Source: Saprospiraceae bacterium (GTDB lineage Bacteria > Bacteroidota > Bacteroidia > Chitinophagales > Saprospiraceae). Taken from it: a DNA stretch of 64,000 bases. The position numbers and the translations under genes are program-made. The notes beneath the pieces were generated by a model. It was given only the letters and a program-made list of their open reading frames with translations. It was not told where the DNA came from and made no database searches. Of the stretch, positions 4,966-15,304 are shown piece by piece; position 1 is the stretch's first letter; each line of letters opens with the position of its first letter. The stretch lies in NCBI GenBank assembly GCA_029263015.1, contig JAJCYI010000139.1, positions 62,001-126,000 on the forward strand, read 5' to 3'.

Positions 4966-5844
4966 TCATTCCCCGCCCCACATGGGCAATCTCCCCGGCG
5001 TATATGGCGCTTTTGCGTCCTCAAGTTTCTTTTCTATTTTTTTCAAATCTACTTCTGTCAAACGGTGCAACTGTTCCAATGCAGCCTTGAACTGCTTGCT
5101 GGCGATACGCTGCTGTTCTTGTTGCGTGAAAGTCGGTGCCGAAGTGGATGACCAAACTTCGTAACTCATGCCATATACTCGACTACTGAGCGATGGCCGT
5201 TGAGGTTGGTCGATCGCCGAGGCAACGCCGTCGCCGTAAAAAGTTTTTTGCATATCGTGTAGTTTCTGTTCGAAAGCTTTTACATCTTTCAACAGTTCAG
5301 CCGCTGGTTGGGCAACTGAGTAGGTCGCTTTGCGAATATGCTGCATAGTATTGCCTAATTCGCCAAGGATGGAAGTCGCACCCTGAAAAGTCCGTTCCAG
5401 TTCTGCTGCTTTACGGATGTAACTGTCGAGTGCCAGTTTATCTGTGGCGGGCAGTGTTGAGCCACCGAGGGTCTCCAATTTAAATGGCTGTGGATCAACC
5501 AGTTTGGTTTCTACTCCATTTATTGTCTTTGACAAACTCACCGTGTATTCCCCAGGAAGGGCAAAACCGCCTCCGTCAGGAGATTGCCAAGGCAGGCGTT
5601 GTCGGGAACTGAGCCGTACAGGGTCTTTTGATGGATACCGACCATCCCAAATGATGCGGTTCACCCCTTTGGATACACCCGTTTTTAATTGCTTGACAAT
5701 TTCCCCACTGCTGTTTTGGATGGTGAAAAGGAGGTAAGCATCTTCCTCTTCGCGCTCAGCTTTCAATTCCTCATAAGTCGGATATCGGATATCCTTATCG
5801 TCCTTGATCTGCTTTTTCTCCCACTCTTGTCGCTTCTCTTTCAA
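4966..5844 (-). CDS. C-terminal part of the BNR/VPS10-type repeat protein, separated by a frameshift
   Basis: 292 residues from a TTG at 5844, overlapping the stop of the 814-residue upstream part (TTGA at 5841-5844). In full-length members of this family a beta-sandwich follows the propeller; here it appears as EDAYLLFTIQNSSGEIVKQL, then NRIIWDGRYPSKD, then LPGEYTVSLS, followed by a helical tail (about 150-250). These are typical of the last third of the roughly 1,080-residue 'VPS10/BNR glycosyl hydrolase-like' proteins of Bacteroidota. It has no signal peptide of its own, so it is unlikely to function as a separate exported protein. Either the gene is disrupted, the base call is wrong, or the two parts are made by coupled translation. 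Confidence 0.7.
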   Translation of the reverse strand: MKEKRQEWEKKQIKDDKDIRYPTYEELKAEREEEDAYLLFTIQNSSGEIVKQLKTGVSKGVNRIIWDGRYPSKDPVRLSSRQRLPWQSPDGGGFALPGEYTVSLSKTINGVETKLVDPQPFKLETLGGSTLPATDKLALDSYIRKAAELERTFQGATSILGELGNTMQHIRKATYSVAQPAAELLKDVKAFEQKLHDMQKTFYGDGVASAIDQPQRPSLSSRVYGMSYEVWSSTSAPTFTQQEQQRIASKQFKAALEQLHRLTEVDLKKIEKKLEDAKAPYTPGRLPMWGGE

Positions 5845-8285
5845 TGTTTTATAACGTCTTTAATAAAATAGGTAAACGTTGCTCCAATGGGAGGATTGGG
5901 TGTGGTGAAATAGGAATGGCCTTGAAATCCTTTTCCGGTCGTGTAACCCAATGGGGAGGCTTTGACGAAAACAGTAGCGTCTTTGATGGGTAATATTTTA
6001 GCCTCGTCGTTAAGTTCTCTTTCGTTTAAATAACGCAGCGGAGAATAATCGTCCATTACGTAAAATCCGCGCCCAAAAGTGCCGAGTACGAGATCGTTTT
6101 CCCGTTGTTGAATAGCAATGTCCCGCACGGCAATAGTCGGTAAGCCACTGGCAAGTTTTTTCCAATAGCCACCCCCGTCACGTGTGAAATAGCAACTAAA
6201 TTCAGTTCCGACAAACAACAAATTAGATTCGACATGATCCTCCGCAACAGAGTAGGTAGAGCCGCGTTCAGGCAGATTGGATGAAATGTTTTCCCACGTC
6301 CTGCCTTTGTCACTGCTTTTGAACATGTATGGCTTGAAGTCACCCCGTTTATGGTTATTGAAACATGCATACACTATATTTTCATCGTGCTGGCTGGCAA
6401 GCAGCATGTTCACGTAAGTCATATCGGGCACACCTGCGAAGCTGGAAATTTTGGTCCAGGTGCTGCCGCCATCCTCGGAGATTTGTACCAGCCCATCGTC
6501 CGTTCCGACATAGAGCAAATCTTGGTTGATTGGACTTTCCGAAAAAGCAACGATGGTGCCGTACTCAGAAGTAGAACGGTTTTTTGCCACCGCGTCAATG
6601 CTTTGAATTTGGCCCATAACCTCCAAAGTGTTGCGATCAATTTGCCTCGTCAAATCATCTCCGAGCACCGTCCACGTATTGCCCCGGTCGTCACTACGGA
6701 AGAGCTTGTTGGCCGCAAAATAAATGCGCTTCGGTACATGCGCAGAAGCTAGTAGTGGCGCATCCCAATTCCATCGGAATGCGTTTTCATCAGCTCTTGG
6801 CTGAGGCTGGATACCTGTCATTTCACCACTCGCTTTGTCGTAGCGGGTCAACCCGCCGTACTGATATTGAGCATACACGATATCTGGGTTTCCTGGATCA
6901 ATGGCACTTTCGAAGCCATCGCCCAATTGCGTGACAAACCAGTCGGAATTGGAGATGCCATGCCCGTTACGGGTACGGCTGGGGCCACCGAGGGAATAGT
7001 TGTCCTGTGTGCCGCCATAGATATTGTAAAATGGCTCGGCATTGTCAACTGCTACTTTGTAAAACTGTGTCACGGGAAGGTTGCCTTTGAAATCCCAAGT
7101 CTTTGCATGGTCAAAACTTTCATATACTCCTCCGTCGCAGCCGGCTAACAAATAGTCGGTATCGTCTGGGTCAATATAAATTACATGGTTGTCCACATGC
7201 TTGTATTCCTCGCCCAATTGCTGGAATGATTTCCCGCCATTATAACTAATCATGTTCCAGGTGTTCATTGAATAGATGATGTCAGGATTGGTCGGGTGGC
7301 AGTAGATTTCCATATAATAATTGCCGCTCGTGCTGTGTCCACTCTGCTTTACCCAGCTTGCCCCCCGGTCGGTACTTTTGAAAAAACCGCCTCCTTTCGA
7401 TGCCTCTACAATGGCATAGATGTATTCCGGATTGGCTGGTGAAATAGCTACTGCGATGCGTCCGATATGAGCCCCACTCGGTAAGCCGCTGGCTGCCTTT
7501 GCCCAGGTTTTTCCGCCGTCGGTTGTTTTATACATAGTGCTGCCCGGGCCACCTCCGACATAGGTGAAAACATGCCGCCGACGCTGGTAGGCCGCGGCAT
7601 ACAGTACATCTGGATTGCTTGGGTCCATAATAAGGTCAGTGATACCGGTATGTTCATCAAGGAGTGATTCGCCTGCTGCATTTTTTATCACCTGCTCCCA
7701 GGTCTTCCCACCGTCCACGGTTTTGTATAGTCCCCGGTCGCCACCTTCGCTCCACAATGGCCCGATGGCTGCGACATACACTACATCAGAATTGCGTGGG
7801 TCAACGATGATTTTGCCAACATGCTCCGATTCTTTCAGTCCAGCATGTTCCCAGCTTTTGCCGCCATCCTTCGATTTGTAAATGCCGTCACCATAAGCGA
7901 CTGAGCGCTGATTGTTGTTCTCACCTGTGCCGACCCACACCACATTTGGGTTGTTTGGGTCTAGGGTTACACAGCCGATGGAGTAGGAGCCTTGGCTATC
8001 GAAAATAGGTTTGTAGGTTGTGCCTGCATTGGTGGTTTTCCACACGCCACCGGAGGCTGTCGCCACATAATAAGTGCTGCGTTTTTTGGGGTGTATGGCA
8101 AAGTCGCTGATTCTGCCCGAAGTGACAGCGGGGCCAACGCTGCGCCATTTCAGGCCAATGCCGAGAGTGTCGAGCAGGTGCTTGGGTTCTTCTTTTTTTT
8201 CGTCTTTGTCTTTTTTCTTCTGGGAAAATATATTTGTAGAAAATAAGATAGTAAATGCCAATAACAGGACGAGTGTTCTTTTCAT
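5841..8285 (-). CDS. Secreted BNR/VPS10-like beta-propeller protein (N-terminal part of a frameshifted gene)
   Basis: 814 residues with a signal peptide (MKRTLVLLLAFTILFSTNIF, then SQ). The mature part is made of repeated sialidase-type Asp-box/BNR motifs, for example SKDGGKSWEHAG, TVDGGKTWEQV, TTDGGKTWAKA, SEDGGSTWTKI and SSDKGRTWENI, spaced about 50-100 residues. This is the ten-bladed VPS10/sortilin-like propeller seen in exported Bacteroidota proteins of unknown substrate. It ends FTYFIKDVIKH at a TGA. One extra A in the short A-run just before the stop would continue into DVIKTLKEKRQEWEKK, the start of the downstream fragment, giving one protein of about 1,105 residues. Sialidase activity should not be assumed from the Asp boxes alone. 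Confidence 0.8.
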   Translation of the reverse strand: MKRTLVLLLAFTILFSTNIFSQKKKDKDEKKEEPKHLLDTLGIGLKWRSVGPAVTSGRISDFAIHPKKRSTYYVATASGGVWKTTNAGTTYKPIFDSQGSYSIGCVTLDPNNPNVVWVGTGENNNQRSVAYGDGIYKSKDGGKSWEHAGLKESEHVGKIIVDPRNSDVVYVAAIGPLWSEGGDRGLYKTVDGGKTWEQVIKNAAGESLLDEHTGITDLIMDPSNPDVLYAAAYQRRRHVFTYVGGGPGSTMYKTTDGGKTWAKAASGLPSGAHIGRIAVAISPANPEYIYAIVEASKGGGFFKSTDRGASWVKQSGHSTSGNYYMEIYCHPTNPDIIYSMNTWNMISYNGGKSFQQLGEEYKHVDNHVIYIDPDDTDYLLAGCDGGVYESFDHAKTWDFKGNLPVTQFYKVAVDNAEPFYNIYGGTQDNYSLGGPSRTRNGHGISNSDWFVTQLGDGFESAIDPGNPDIVYAQYQYGGLTRYDKASGEMTGIQPQPRADENAFRWNWDAPLLASAHVPKRIYFAANKLFRSDDRGNTWTVLGDDLTRQIDRNTLEVMGQIQSIDAVAKNRSTSEYGTIVAFSESPINQDLLYVGTDDGLVQISEDGGSTWTKISSFAGVPDMTYVNMLLASQHDENIVYACFNNHKRGDFKPYMFKSSDKGRTWENISSNLPERGSTYSVAEDHVESNLLFVGTEFSCYFTRDGGGYWKKLASGLPTIAVRDIAIQQRENDLVLGTFGRGFYVMDDYSPLRYLNERELNDEAKILPIKDATVFVKASPLGYTTGKGFQGHSYFTTPNPPIGATFTYFIKDVIKH

Positions 8286-8430
8286 GATATTTGTTGATTT
8301 GGTTGAGGGCGGGAAGGTAAGGAAAAATTGGATTTTGAGAAAGGGACATTTAAGCCACAGGTTTTTGATAATGGAAAATTTAGAATGAACGCAGGGCAGT
8401 TAAAATTTAATTGATAATTTAATTGTATTT

Positions 8431-8449
8431 ATTATCAAAATTTGATAAT
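8431..8449. promoter_or_regulatory. Palindromic candidate operator of the HTH-GNAT-TIR operon
   Basis: ATTATCAAA-A-TTTGATAAT: two exact 9-bp arms (8431-8439 and 8441-8449) around one base. The right arm overlaps the candidate -7 box at 8446-8453. A second copy of TTGATAATTT lies at 8411-8420. A palindrome over the -10-like box is the usual arrangement for autoregulation by a HigA-type HTH protein, which is encoded by the second gene of the operon. The link is inference. Confidence 0.5.
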
Positions 8450-8453
8450 TTTG
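8446..8453 (+). promoter_or_regulatory. Candidate -7 box of the accessory operon
   Basis: TAATTTTG matches TAnnTTTG; a TTG at 8423-8425 lies 20 bases upstream, close to the expected -33 spacing. The predicted transcription start (about 8460) supports the ATG at 8474 rather than the one at 8423. Confidence 0.5.
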
Positions 8454-8473
8454 AAATTAATTCCAAACACTTT

Positions 8474-8974
8474 ATGAAACCAATTTTATTAGATAAAAGT
8501 ACGGGAGTCTCTAAAAGAGCTGTTATTCTAAAAGCTGACCTAAAGGGAATGCCGTTGAGAAAAGACGGTTGGCAATTTACATGGAGAAGTCTTGCAAAAA
8601 CAGAGGGTGCCACATTCTATAAAATTGTTTTAAAGGAAACTTCCAACATAATTGAAGGCATTATTATGCTTACTTTGATGCATGGAGAAATGCTTTATCT
8701 AAACAATATTGAAGTGGCACCGCACAATTATGGAAACCGAGGTAAATATGAACATGTAGCTGGTTGTTTATTGGCGTTTGCTTGTAGGGAGAGCATCGCA
8801 AAAGGAAAAGGCAACTACAAGGGCTTTTTGGTTTTAGATAGTAAAACTGAATTGATTGAGTTGTACGAAACCAAATATGGCGCAACCAGGTCTTTGGGGC
8901 ATACGATGTTTATTGATCCAGAGGCGGGTTTTCTTTTGATGGAGAATTACTTAAATATTTCAACAGATTTATAA
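8474..8974 (+). CDS. GNAT-like acetyltransferase-fold protein, first gene of accessory operon
   Basis: 166 residues from the ATG at 8474; an upstream ATG at 8423 would lie inside the promoter. The middle part reads LYLNNIEVAPHNYGNRGKYE, then HVAGCLLAFACRES (75-106), which looks like strand 4 plus the acetyl-CoA-binding loop and helix 3 of GNAT enzymes. It is followed by KGFLVLDSKTELIELYETKY (about 116-135), then GATRSLGHTMFID, like strand 5/helix 4 with the common '..LYEK.GF' pattern. The pyrophosphate loop is not canonical (NRGKYEHVAG). It lies 12 bases upstream of a HigA-like HTH gene, so a toxin role (compare GNAT toxins TacT/AtaT, which pair with RHH rather than HTH antitoxins) is plausible but unproven. 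Local DNA is AT-rich. Confidence 0.5.
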   Translation: MKPILLDKSTGVSKRAVILKADLKGMPLRKDGWQFTWRSLAKTEGATFYKIVLKETSNIIEGIIMLTLMHGEMLYLNNIEVAPHNYGNRGKYEHVAGCLLAFACRESIAKGKGNYKGFLVLDSKTELIELYETKYGATRSLGHTMFIDPEAGFLLMENYLNISTDL

Positions 8975-8986
8975 AACAACTGAGTT

Positions 8987-9481
8987 ATGTCAAAGGATAA
9001 ATTTGTAAATGAAGGTGGGATAAATGGAATCGGACAAGGCGTGGTCAACACAAATAGTGAGTCGTATAAAGCTGTCCGAAAAATGGTTGCCAAAAAATTT
9101 GTGGCTCAAAGTGAAGAGCAACAAACAAAAGTCAACATTTTGTCCCTGCGCTTTCAAATGGAGGATTTTCTGAATGATGAAAATCCATCAGAAATAATCA
9201 AAGTTGGTTCGTTTTTGAATGAATTGATAAAAGCTACCCAGATTAAAAACAAAGACTTTGCTGAATACATTGGCATTAAACCGTCCAATTTGAGCGCCTT
9301 ATTAAAAGGTAATAGGCGCATTAATATTGAACTCGCCTTGAAACTTAATAGTATCTTTCACATTCATCCCATTCTTTGGCTGCACATTCAAAATAAGAAT
9401 GATTTGTTGGGAATAAGAGAAGATACACGTTCCCAATTTAATAAGTACAGCTTGGATGAATTGTTGGAGAGAAGGGCTTGA
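8987..9481 (+). CDS. HigA-like XRE-family HTH regulator/antitoxin
   Basis: 164 residues. The HTH domain spans about 76-140: FLNELIKATQIKNKDFAEYI, then GIKPSNLSALLKGNRRINIE, then LALKLNSIFHIHPILWLHIQ. This is the HigA/addiction-module antidote pattern, including the 'hp.lWL.lQ' ending of that family. The first 75 residues are extra and of unknown role; in HigA-type antitoxins such extensions often contact the partner. It lies 12 bases after the GNAT-like gene and overlaps the next gene by 26 bases, so translation of all three is likely coupled. It probably represses the operon through the palindrome at 8431-8449. Confidence 0.75.
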   Translation: MSKDKFVNEGGINGIGQGVVNTNSESYKAVRKMVAKKFVAQSEEQQTKVNILSLRFQMEDFLNDENPSEIIKVGSFLNELIKATQIKNKDFAEYIGIKPSNLSALLKGNRRINIELALKLNSIFHIHPILWLHIQNKNDLLGIREDTRSQFNKYSLDELLERRA

Positions 9482-10562
9482 AAAATTTAAATTCAGATAC
9501 CCAAACAACGAAATTACCATTGTGAAACTCTTTTTTCAAATTGTCCTTTTCATCATAATTGCAGGCATCATAATGGTTGCCATCGGAGGCAGCGCAGATT
9601 TTTTGGCTTCCTTTACACGCCACCAATTGACCTCGTTTTTTGGGTTGGGAGAATATAGTTTTTGGACAACCCTACTTTTGGTTTTGGTTTTTTTGGTGGC
9701 AGTTGTGTTGTTGATTCCTTTGGTGTTACTGGTTCGCACGAGGTTTGTACGCCCTGTCGTTTTTATTTCATTCAAAAATGTCCATGAAAAAAAAGCCGTT
9801 GAATTAGAAAAGCAATTGAAAAAAGAAGGATTTGGAGTAGAACGACTGGCCTTTTCCAAAAAATATAAACACGACGAAGTGGTTAGTCAAGTTCGTAAGA
9901 AACTACAAAAATCGCATGTGTTGGTGGCCATTCCAGATGCTGAGGAAGCATCCTTTGTGGATGCAGAATTACTGGCTGCTTCTGCTCTGAAAATACCGAT
10001 CGTACTTCTCCGATATCAAGAAAAACAATCTCAGCCCGGCACACTTTTATTAGGTTACCCCGTTTTTGATTTCCGTTCCATTCAAAATCAGCAGTTCGCT
10101 CCCTTGTTCCGGTTTTTGTTGTTCGCCACCCGCCACCGCAAAGATTTTTTCAATCAAATCAGACGGATATTGAAGCAAATGTTAGACCCTGCCATTTTAT
10201 TGGTGCTCGGCATTCTTGTCGGCATTTTTTTATTGATAAAATTTGGTGCCAGGATGCTGCATCAGTTGCTTTCCAAAGTATTGGATTGGGATGTTGGCAA
10301 TTTTTTGGTGGAAGGCGATGACCTGAACCAGTCTGTGCTAATCATGCTGATTGTTGGATTCGCTGCTTATTCCATCGGGAAAGCCTTTTACACCCTGCGC
10401 GTTGCTCGCCAAGTAGTCGTTACGGGAACAGACAGCTATAAAACTTTCAAAGAGGAATTTTCATTTTTGAAAAAGGACAGGGAAATGATGGCGTGTATTC
10501 AGTTGAATGTGTTGGAGGCTAAGGGGAAGGAGGGATTTAATGATAGCAATCTTAGCTATTAA
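9456..10562 (+). CDS. Membrane-anchored TIR-like domain protein
   Basis: 368 residues if started at ATG 9456; a GTG at 9522 (residue 23) is an alternative. Hydrophobic segments lie at about 24-44, 71-93, 246-264 and 292-310. Between the two pairs, residues about 101-190 look like a TIR domain: PVVFISFKNVHEKKAVELEK (strand A plus helix A), then LKKEGFGVERLAF, then VVSQVRKKLQKSHVLVAIPD, then EEASFVDAELLAASALKIPI, then VLLRY. E171 in VDAELLAAS sits where TIR NADases have the catalytic Glu after the S-x-W/F region. TIR domains act as NAD+-degrading effectors or signal generators in several anti-phage systems. The family call rests on pattern only; a non-enzymatic TIR-like fold is the main alternative. 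It overlaps the HTH gene, arguing for one operon. Confidence 0.55.
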   Translation: MNCWREGLEKFKFRYPNNEITIVKLFFQIVLFIIIAGIIMVAIGGSADFLASFTRHQLTSFFGLGEYSFWTTLLLVLVFLVAVVLLIPLVLLVRTRFVRPVVFISFKNVHEKKAVELEKQLKKEGFGVERLAFSKKYKHDEVVSQVRKKLQKSHVLVAIPDAEEASFVDAELLAASALKIPIVLLRYQEKQSQPGTLLLGYPVFDFRSIQNQQFAPLFRFLLFATRHRKDFFNQIRRILKQMLDPAILLVLGILVGIFLLIKFGARMLHQLLSKVLDWDVGNFLVEGDDLNQSVLIMLIVGFAAYSIGKAFYTLRVARQVVVTGTDSYKTFKEEFSFLKKDREMMACIQLNVLEAKGKEGFNDSNLSY

Positions 10563-14602: not shown

Positions 14603-15304
14603 ATGCAAAATCAATTTCCAAAAATATTGCTGGCCGAGGATGATGAAACGCTCGGATACCTCCTGAAAGAATACCTCTCGACCCAGGGATTTGAGATAGA
14701 TTGGACAAAAGATGGTGCAGATGCGCTCCGCCATTTTAATAAAAGCAATTACGACCTGGCCATTCTTGATGTGATGATGCCTGCTCTCGACGGCTTCACC
14801 GTTGCCGAGCTGATCCGCAACCGACAACCTGCCCTGCCCATTATATTCCTGACGGCCAAATCCATGCACAAAGATGTGGAACGGGGCTTCAAGGCCGGTG
14901 CCGACGATTATATCAAAAAACCTGTCAATGAGGAAGAATTAGTGGCTCGGATTCAAGCTGTTTTGAAACGCTCCACATCCATTTCAAGCTCCCAACAATC
15001 CTTTTCTGTTTTCCAGATCGGCGATTATATTTTTGAAAGTGAAAAATGCTGGTTGCGGCACGGCGAAGACGAGAAGGAATTGACCGAGATGGAATCCAAT
15101 CTTTTGAAATTGCTCTGCGAAAGAAAAGGCAGCCTCGTCCGCCGGGAGCAGGTGCTGGAAAAAATGTGGGGACGCCACGATTTCCTTGCCCGCAAGAGTA
15201 TGGACGTTTTCATTTCCCGCTTGCGCAAATATTTATCAAAAGATGAAAAGATTAAAATTGTGAACGTGCACGGGAGTGGCTTTGTGCTGGAAGTGGAAGG
15301 TTAG
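14603..15304 (+). CDS. OmpR/PhoB-family response regulator (RprY-like)
   Basis: 233 residues. The receiver domain (about 6-120) has the acidic pocket LLAEDDE (D13, D14), phosphoacceptor D56 in YDLAILDVMMP, the LTAKS Thr and the KKP Lys near 105. The C-terminal winged-helix (about 140-230) shows LTEMESNLLKLLCERKGSLV, then RREQVLEKMWG and DVFISRLRKYLSKDEKIKIV, then NVHGSGFVLE. No histidine kinase gene is adjacent, so it is an orphan here or pairs with a kinase elsewhere. Similar to RprY of Bacteroides by pattern. Confidence 0.9.
   Translation: MQNQFPKILLAEDDETLGYLLKEYLSTQGFEIDWTKDGADALRHFNKSNYDLAILDVMMPALDGFTVAELIRNRQPALPIIFLTAKSMHKDVERGFKAGADDYIKKPVNEEELVARIQAVLKRSTSISSSQQSFSVFQIGDYIFESEKCWLRHGEDEKELTEMESNLLKLLCERKGSLVRREQVLEKMWGRHDFLARKSMDVFISRLRKYLSKDEKIKIVNVHGSGFVLEVEG

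Follow-up and report, generated by a model that had tools for sequence, protein, structure and literature searches.

The three genes described here lie on one strand of a 64,000-nucleotide stretch (hereinafter the window) of contig JAJCYI010000139.1 from the 6.95-Mb draft genome of a Saprospiraceae bacterium (GCA_029263015.1; 245 contigs). In order, these open reading frames (ORFs) code for a GNAT-like protein (gene 1), a helix-turn-helix (HTH) protein of the HigA/Xre type (gene 2), and a membrane protein with a TIR-like domain (gene 3), and a palindrome of the form TTATCAA-N3-TTGATAA is located before gene 1. The initial annotation had placed all three in a single regulated toxic or abortive-infection module. 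Comparison with related loci suggests instead that genes 1 and 2 probably form a toxin-first, type II toxin-antitoxin (TA)-like cassette of the GNAT-Xre kind and that the TIR-like membrane gene is independent of it. We favor this interpretation because an HTH ORF follows the relatives of gene 1 on the same strand at many distinct loci and in a sister subfamily, because the spread of these genes is patchy, multicopy, and partly broken, as is usual for such cassettes, because the palindrome recurs upstream of relatives and is unique in its own genome, and because gene 2 matches HigA and the sister subfamily matches GNATs. The G+C content is among the other points that argue for it: genes 1 and 2 (36.5 and 35.8%) lie below the other genes measured, namely, gene 3 (41.4%) and eight further genes (40.5 to 48.7%).

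Gene 1 most likely begins at ATG 8474, since the alternative TTG 8423, which gives the longest ORF, would render the palindrome coding and since the alignment of its relatives begins at the ATG. Its stop at 8974 is followed by the ATG of gene 2 at 8987, which bears out the reported 12-base spacing of these same-strand ORFs. Gene 3 probably starts at GTG 9522, the point at which the alignment of its relatives begins and at which two of them have a GTG (L041) and an ATG (L039). With these starts, the spacings are therefore 12 and 40 bases, and no genes overlap; the 26-base overlap of genes 2 and 3 in the initial annotation is valid only with ATG 9456, a doubtful start codon.

Table 1. Positions in the window of the palindrome, the three genes, and the parts of gene 3 discussed in the text
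Feature	Position	Strand	Basis or remark
Palindrome TTATCAA-AAT-TTGATAA, 17 bp, putative operator for genes 1 and 2	8432..8448		Unique in own genome; recurs upstream of relatives
Gene 1, GNAT-like, 166 aa, presumed toxin	8474..8974	+	Family relatives, alignments, sister subfamily linked to GNATs
Gene 2, HigA/Xre-type HTH protein, 164 aa, presumed antitoxin/repressor	8987..9481	+	TIGR02607, HTH_3, conserved position after gene 1
Gene 3, membrane protein with TIR-like domain	9522..10562	+	346 aa from GTG 9522; 368 aa from ATG 9456
TIR-like domain of gene 3, residues 102-212 (from ATG 9456)	9759..10091	+	PF13676 matches, profile comparison
Codon of E171 (E149 from GTG 9522), candidate catalytic Glu	9966..9968	+	Invariant in four members; aligned with Glu of L093

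Relatives of gene 1 are present in 91 of the 298 genomes of the family sample, at up to six places per genome and in some cases with internal stops, and in 27 of the 395 genomes of the phylum sample. They also occur at seven loci of named genomes, which belong to Saprospiraceae, Neolewinella, one Chitinophagaceae, and two unclassified Bacteroidota. Of 66 loci that carry a relative of gene 1, 44 have an HTH ORF homologous to gene 2 directly downstream and on the same strand; these correspond to 38 distinct genes, and the count excludes L016, which is on the opposite strand. A sister subfamily of 23 loci, homologous to gene 1 with an E value of 5.6e-55, has the HTH ORF downstream at 22 loci, 20 of them new; if the longest ORF is used, 20 of the 22 show an overlap of 4 to 50 bases with gene 1. 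An adjacent, codirectional pair of GNAT-type and Xre/HTH genes is thereby conserved at 38 distinct loci and 20 sister loci. The genome to which the window belongs carries a second such pair, of the sister subfamily, on the minus strand of another contig (L123:1861-2878), with neither a TIR gene nor the palindrome. At one locus of Neolewinella xylanilytica (L034:5483-5884), the HTH ORF has 133 codons and diverges near its end, as if shortened.

The gene 2 protein matches the HigA model TIGR02607 at residues 71 to 144, passing the cutoff narrowly (48.2 versus 47.7 bits), and the HTH_3 model with an E value of 9.6e-6. Approximately 70 residues precede the HTH domain and are recognizable by eye as common to seven aligned relatives, in keeping with the HigA/XRE-type regulator with a 75-residue extension that had been annotated here. 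Weak matches to five HTH-type models of PADLOC (best PDC-M69A, E value of 1.7e-5) may be of the sort that any such HTH domain could give.

The sequence TTATCAANNNTTGATAA occurs at a single place in the 6.95-Mb genome, in which the reversed control pattern is not found at all. Under the looser rule TTATC-N(3-11)-GATAA, 11 of 30 upstream regions of relatives contain the palindrome, always in the 17-bp form TTATC-N7-GATAA; 300 dinucleotide shuffles gave 0.10 such regions on average and never more than 2, and 6 of 1,042 other tiles of the same loci satisfy the rule. Half-sites are present in 18 of these 30 regions, where shuffling gave 2.66 on average and at most 8. This test covered 30 of the 38 distinct loci, the excluded ones being divergent or broken (L005, L007, L027, and L030) or else broken, cut, or with little DNA (L051, L057, L059, and L064); by plain count, the 17-bp form lies upstream at 13 of the 38. 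Such a recurrent palindrome is a candidate operator of the kind required for an HTH antitoxin to repress its own operon.

A working model can be conceived for which we infer DNA binding, neutralization, toxicity, and acylation together with its target. In this model, the HTH protein would bind the palindrome and repress the operon and, in addition, would keep the GNAT-like protein inactive through direct binding. Loss of the HTH protein would then free the GNAT-like enzyme and slow growth; the likeliest single route, which we put forward tentatively, would be acylation of aminoacyl-tRNA, as in other GNAT toxins.

Beyond the loci with an HTH gene, the position close behind gene 1 is taken by a small ORF of about 50 to 90 codons at 23 of 27 further loci (L006, L008-L018, L020, L021, L024-L026, L028, L031, L117, L124, L125, and L145). 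Among the remainder, L007, L022, and L023, in which gene 1 is broken, have none, and L019 gave no gene 1 ORF. The small-partner loci include two plasmids (L124 and L125) and a viral contig (L117), on which the gene 1 relative (L117:4902-5604) shares its stretch with genes that look phage-like by eye. Distant relatives, with 30 to 32% identity, are found in four plasmid records, of which two loci were inspected, and a search of gene 1 against a phage collection returned zero matches. By eye, most of the small partners share an acidic-hydrophobic start, an L-T-x-x-E motif, and a basic tail, those of L124 and L125 less so, and they are possible alternative antitoxins. This raises the prospect, which we regard as plausible yet still on the doubtful side, of a GNAT-derived toxin family, its coenzyme A (CoA) loop remodeled, in which one antitoxin has been exchanged for another: a HigA-type repressor with a palindromic operator here and a small protein of about 50 to 90 residues, with no HTH by eye, in other Bacteroidota, in Paenibacillus and Treponema plasmids (among them pPPM1a of Paenibacillus polymyxa), and in one viral contig.

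The best-surviving alternative is that genes 1 and 2, instead of being a TA pair, constitute an acetyltransferase module that regulates itself and serves metabolism or resistance. GNAT substrates are many, relatives of gene 1 occur elsewhere without an HTH gene, and the available text of the 2009 survey that first listed GNAT-Xre pairs among new TA-like pairs leans toward a resistance role over a bona fide TA pair (PMC2701414); against this stand the gene order, with the toxin first and the two genes overlapping or nearly so, the patchy multicopy spread, the broken copies, and the fact that some partner adjoins gene 1 at most of the distant loci too. Moreover, PacTA, a GNAT-Xre pair, is reported in the available text on that system to be toxic (PMC9561280). 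We therefore consider such a metabolic or resistance module unlikely.

Together with that published opinion, a number of our own observations weigh against a GNAT-Xre cassette. An HTH ORF directly downstream is absent at 22 of the 66 loci examined, and the exact palindrome is absent at 25 of the 38 distinct loci. The gene 1 protein itself has zero matches in Pfam, NCBIfam, PADLOC, and PHROGs up to an E value of 1. Its profile compares only weakly with one built from GNAT proteins of its own genome (E value of 0.061 and probability of 0.9, versus control E values of 0.39 and 0.62); the latter profile used 17 of 19 matches, L077 having given no ORF and L092 having been excluded. Finally, the CoA-loop signature of GNATs is replaced in gene 1, as judged by eye, by a longer conserved loop.

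The lack of a family match and the unusual loop could mean that gene 1 has an unrelated, toxin-like fold and is no GNAT, as might the searches against solved structures, which gave nothing better than a chance-level E value of 0.75. Such an origin appears improbable in light of the sister subfamily, which is clearly homologous to gene 1 and which aligns with the same 17 GNATs over 139 columns (E value of 1e-4 and probability of 57; TIR control E value of 0.37). One of its members, L027, further matches PF13673 (Acetyltransf_10) with an E value of 9.4e-5 and 22.8 bits versus a cutoff of 23.6, alone among the 31 members scanned. In the alignment of 31 gene 1 members, F35, G62, G87, S107, G117, L127, Y131, and L155 are invariant and E80, N85, G97, and others nearly so, with Y131 aligned with the motif-B-type Tyr of GNATs. 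Because the sister subfamily matches GNATs, we take gene 1 to be a GNAT-derived protein with a noncanonical CoA loop; the GNAT-like assignment in the initial annotation is thus supported by this indirect path but not by any family match of gene 1 itself. Chance-level Pfam matches of its relatives, such as those to DUF1132 (E value of 0.0023, L030) and Viral_Rep, were discarded.

The TIR_2 model (PF13676) matches gene 3 at residues 102 to 212 with an E value of 2.6e-5 and 25.1 bits, below the 28-bit cutoff; the score is 27.9 bits in the search of its own genome and 28.2 with in-frame neighbors, and all four members of the gene 3 family match, the best with an E value of 2.6e-7. Compared by profile with seven other TIR proteins of its genome, gene 3 gives an E value of 1.9e-5 and a probability of 77.7. 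These seven were taken from the nine TIR_2 matches of the genome (L093-L101), among which L100 is gene 3 itself and L101 was excluded; in L093, the TIR domain precedes BRCT-type repeats by eye. As had been annotated, hydrophobic stretches by Kyte-Doolittle analysis flank the TIR-like domain in pairs, at residues 17 to 53 and 62 to 104 and at residues 237 to 269 and 290 to 312 (numbered from ATG 9456), and a further one, at residues 167 to 185 and barely above the threshold, falls within it. The acidic residue singled out earlier, E171, is invariant in the four family members along with F167, V168, and D169 and is aligned by eye in the profile comparison with a Glu of L093, a position that we take to be that of the catalytic Glu of TIR proteins. 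Hence, E171 is a candidate catalytic Glu. Against solved structures, the TIR region scored at chance level, with a weak likeness to Blasticidin M (E value of 0.41), and the gene 3 protein and two relatives had zero matches in PADLOC.

Relatives of gene 3 were found in 5 of the 298 family genomes, namely, its own, three of one other genus with 36 to 43% identity, and one poor match. Profile searches, which scored up to five first-look candidates per genome so that weak relatives could be missed, recovered, among 398 family genomes, the three relatives already named, two marginal matches, and the genome of the window itself; among 395 phylum genomes, they recovered the latter alone. With all candidates scored, gene 3 relatives are absent from 13 other genomes of the genus (14 searched), and none were found on plasmids or viral contigs. 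A marginal match in G617 (E value of 5.5e-4) was discarded, as it sits in a transporter-like ORF, and those in G566 (E value of 7.9e-4) and G643 (E value of 9.7e-4) were set aside. Read from their translations, the neighbors of the three good relatives are an ion exchanger and a regulator-like protein (L039), kinase-like and UvrC-like proteins (L040), and peptidase-like proteins (L041), with no GNAT or HTH ORF seen within about 1.5 kb.

Conversely, a TIR gene is present at none of the 37 other distinct GNAT-HTH pairs, 34 of which have more than 1,000 bases after gene 1, and at none of the 20 added sister pairs. The GNAT-HTH-TIR arrangement is known only from this genome, and the conservation of gene order is one of the points on which the initial annotation had staked its three-gene defense or abortive-infection system. 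We accordingly reject a conserved three-gene system, since the TIR gene is unlinked elsewhere and its good relatives stand alone; gene 3 looks like an independent neighbor and no conserved part of the pair. It may nonetheless be cotranscribed with genes 1 and 2 from the same promoter, because a terminator-like site was not found between genes 2 and 3, the nearest (9576-9593) lying inside gene 3; the scans of the stretch gave 4 terminator-like sites versus 2.8 expected and 7 sigma-70 promoters versus 6.8 expected. A true three-gene module, in which the HTH protein would restrain a membrane-bound TIR NADase as well as a GNAT toxin, could appeal to this shared strand and close spacing, the missing terminator, and the Glu in place in the TIR domain, but the linkage data above, the genus genomes that lack gene 3, and the near absence of PADLOC matches among the neighboring proteins make it very improbable. 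What survives of the regulated toxic module is the conserved pair of genes 1 and 2 with its palindrome, to which the TIR gene does not seem to belong.

HigBA operons are toxin first. Genes 1 and 2 share with them this order and the HigA-family HTH protein and differ in that gene 1 has no HigB/RelE match in Pfam or NCBIfam up to an E value of 1. TIR-domain NADase effectors occur in antiphage systems, such as Thoeris and others. Gene 3 resembles these in having a TIR_2-like domain that retains the Glu and departs from them in having this domain between two pairs of hydrophobic segments, in that a partner gene was not found, and in its lack of PADLOC matches. According to the available text of one source, aminoacyl-tRNAs are acetylated by those GNAT toxins that pair with DUF1778 antitoxins (PMC9177977), and these GNAT-ribbon-helix-helix (RHH) systems (AtaT, TacT, ItaT, and KacT) are alike in the mechanism supposed here; unlike theirs, the antitoxin is an HTH rather than an RHH/DUF1778 protein, and gene 1 is unmatched by those toxin families. 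A "GNAT" of the Bacteroides cfiA element is said, by description only and in the part of the text available, to resemble Elp3 and AtaT-type toxins (PMC9138018).

The closest likeness is to GNAT-Xre pairs such as PacTA of Pseudomonas aeruginosa, in which an acetyltransferase-type gene adjoins an Xre/HTH gene. The abstract on PacTA describes translation arrest via aminoacyl-tRNA acetylation, its discussion says that the substrate needs more study, and PacA is described in the available text with an extra N-terminal part before its C-terminal HTH, as in gene 2 (PMC9561280). Differences lie in the missing direct GNAT match and unusual CoA loop of gene 1, PacT being likened by description only, in the N-terminal part of gene 2, which comprises only about 70 residues, and in the small non-HTH partner of many gene 1 relatives. 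Genes 1 and 2 are probably a divergent form of this known two-gene kind, standing beside an independent TIR-like membrane gene. The earlier statement that no system with this set had been described needs to be amended to this extent, as GNAT-Xre pairs are published; among the literature matches listed on GNAT-Xre/HigA/HTH, GNAT toxins, and TIR plus GNAT, we recognized no description of the gene 1 family or of the three-gene set.

The surroundings of the locus do not look like a defense island: of eight neighboring proteins compared with PADLOC, only the response-regulator-like protein at 14603 to 15304 matched, weakly, to SduA (E value of 2.7e-5) and PDC-M60B. On the minus strand at 4966 to 8285, the ORFs 5841-8285 and 4966-5844 correspond to one frame of 1,104 to 1,158 codons in relatives from the genus, this single-frame form being the best match in each of five genus genomes, and the copy in the window seems to be split by a frame change or sequence error. 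The upstream gene is present in all five genus genomes searched, with differing neighbors, and no relatives of genes 1 to 3 were seen by eye in the stretches beside its best copies. No clean empty site emerged from these, and the downstream epimerase gene was unmatched in eight genomes.

Setting aside the three-gene defense system spares a false lead. What takes its place is a TA-like family present in 91 of the 298 family genomes, the first gene of which is unnamed by any library searched, and the recurrent candidate operator offers a direct handle on the binding of gene 2. The possible exchange of partners is the most interesting lead: if true, it would provide a natural series for how one toxin changes its type of antitoxin.

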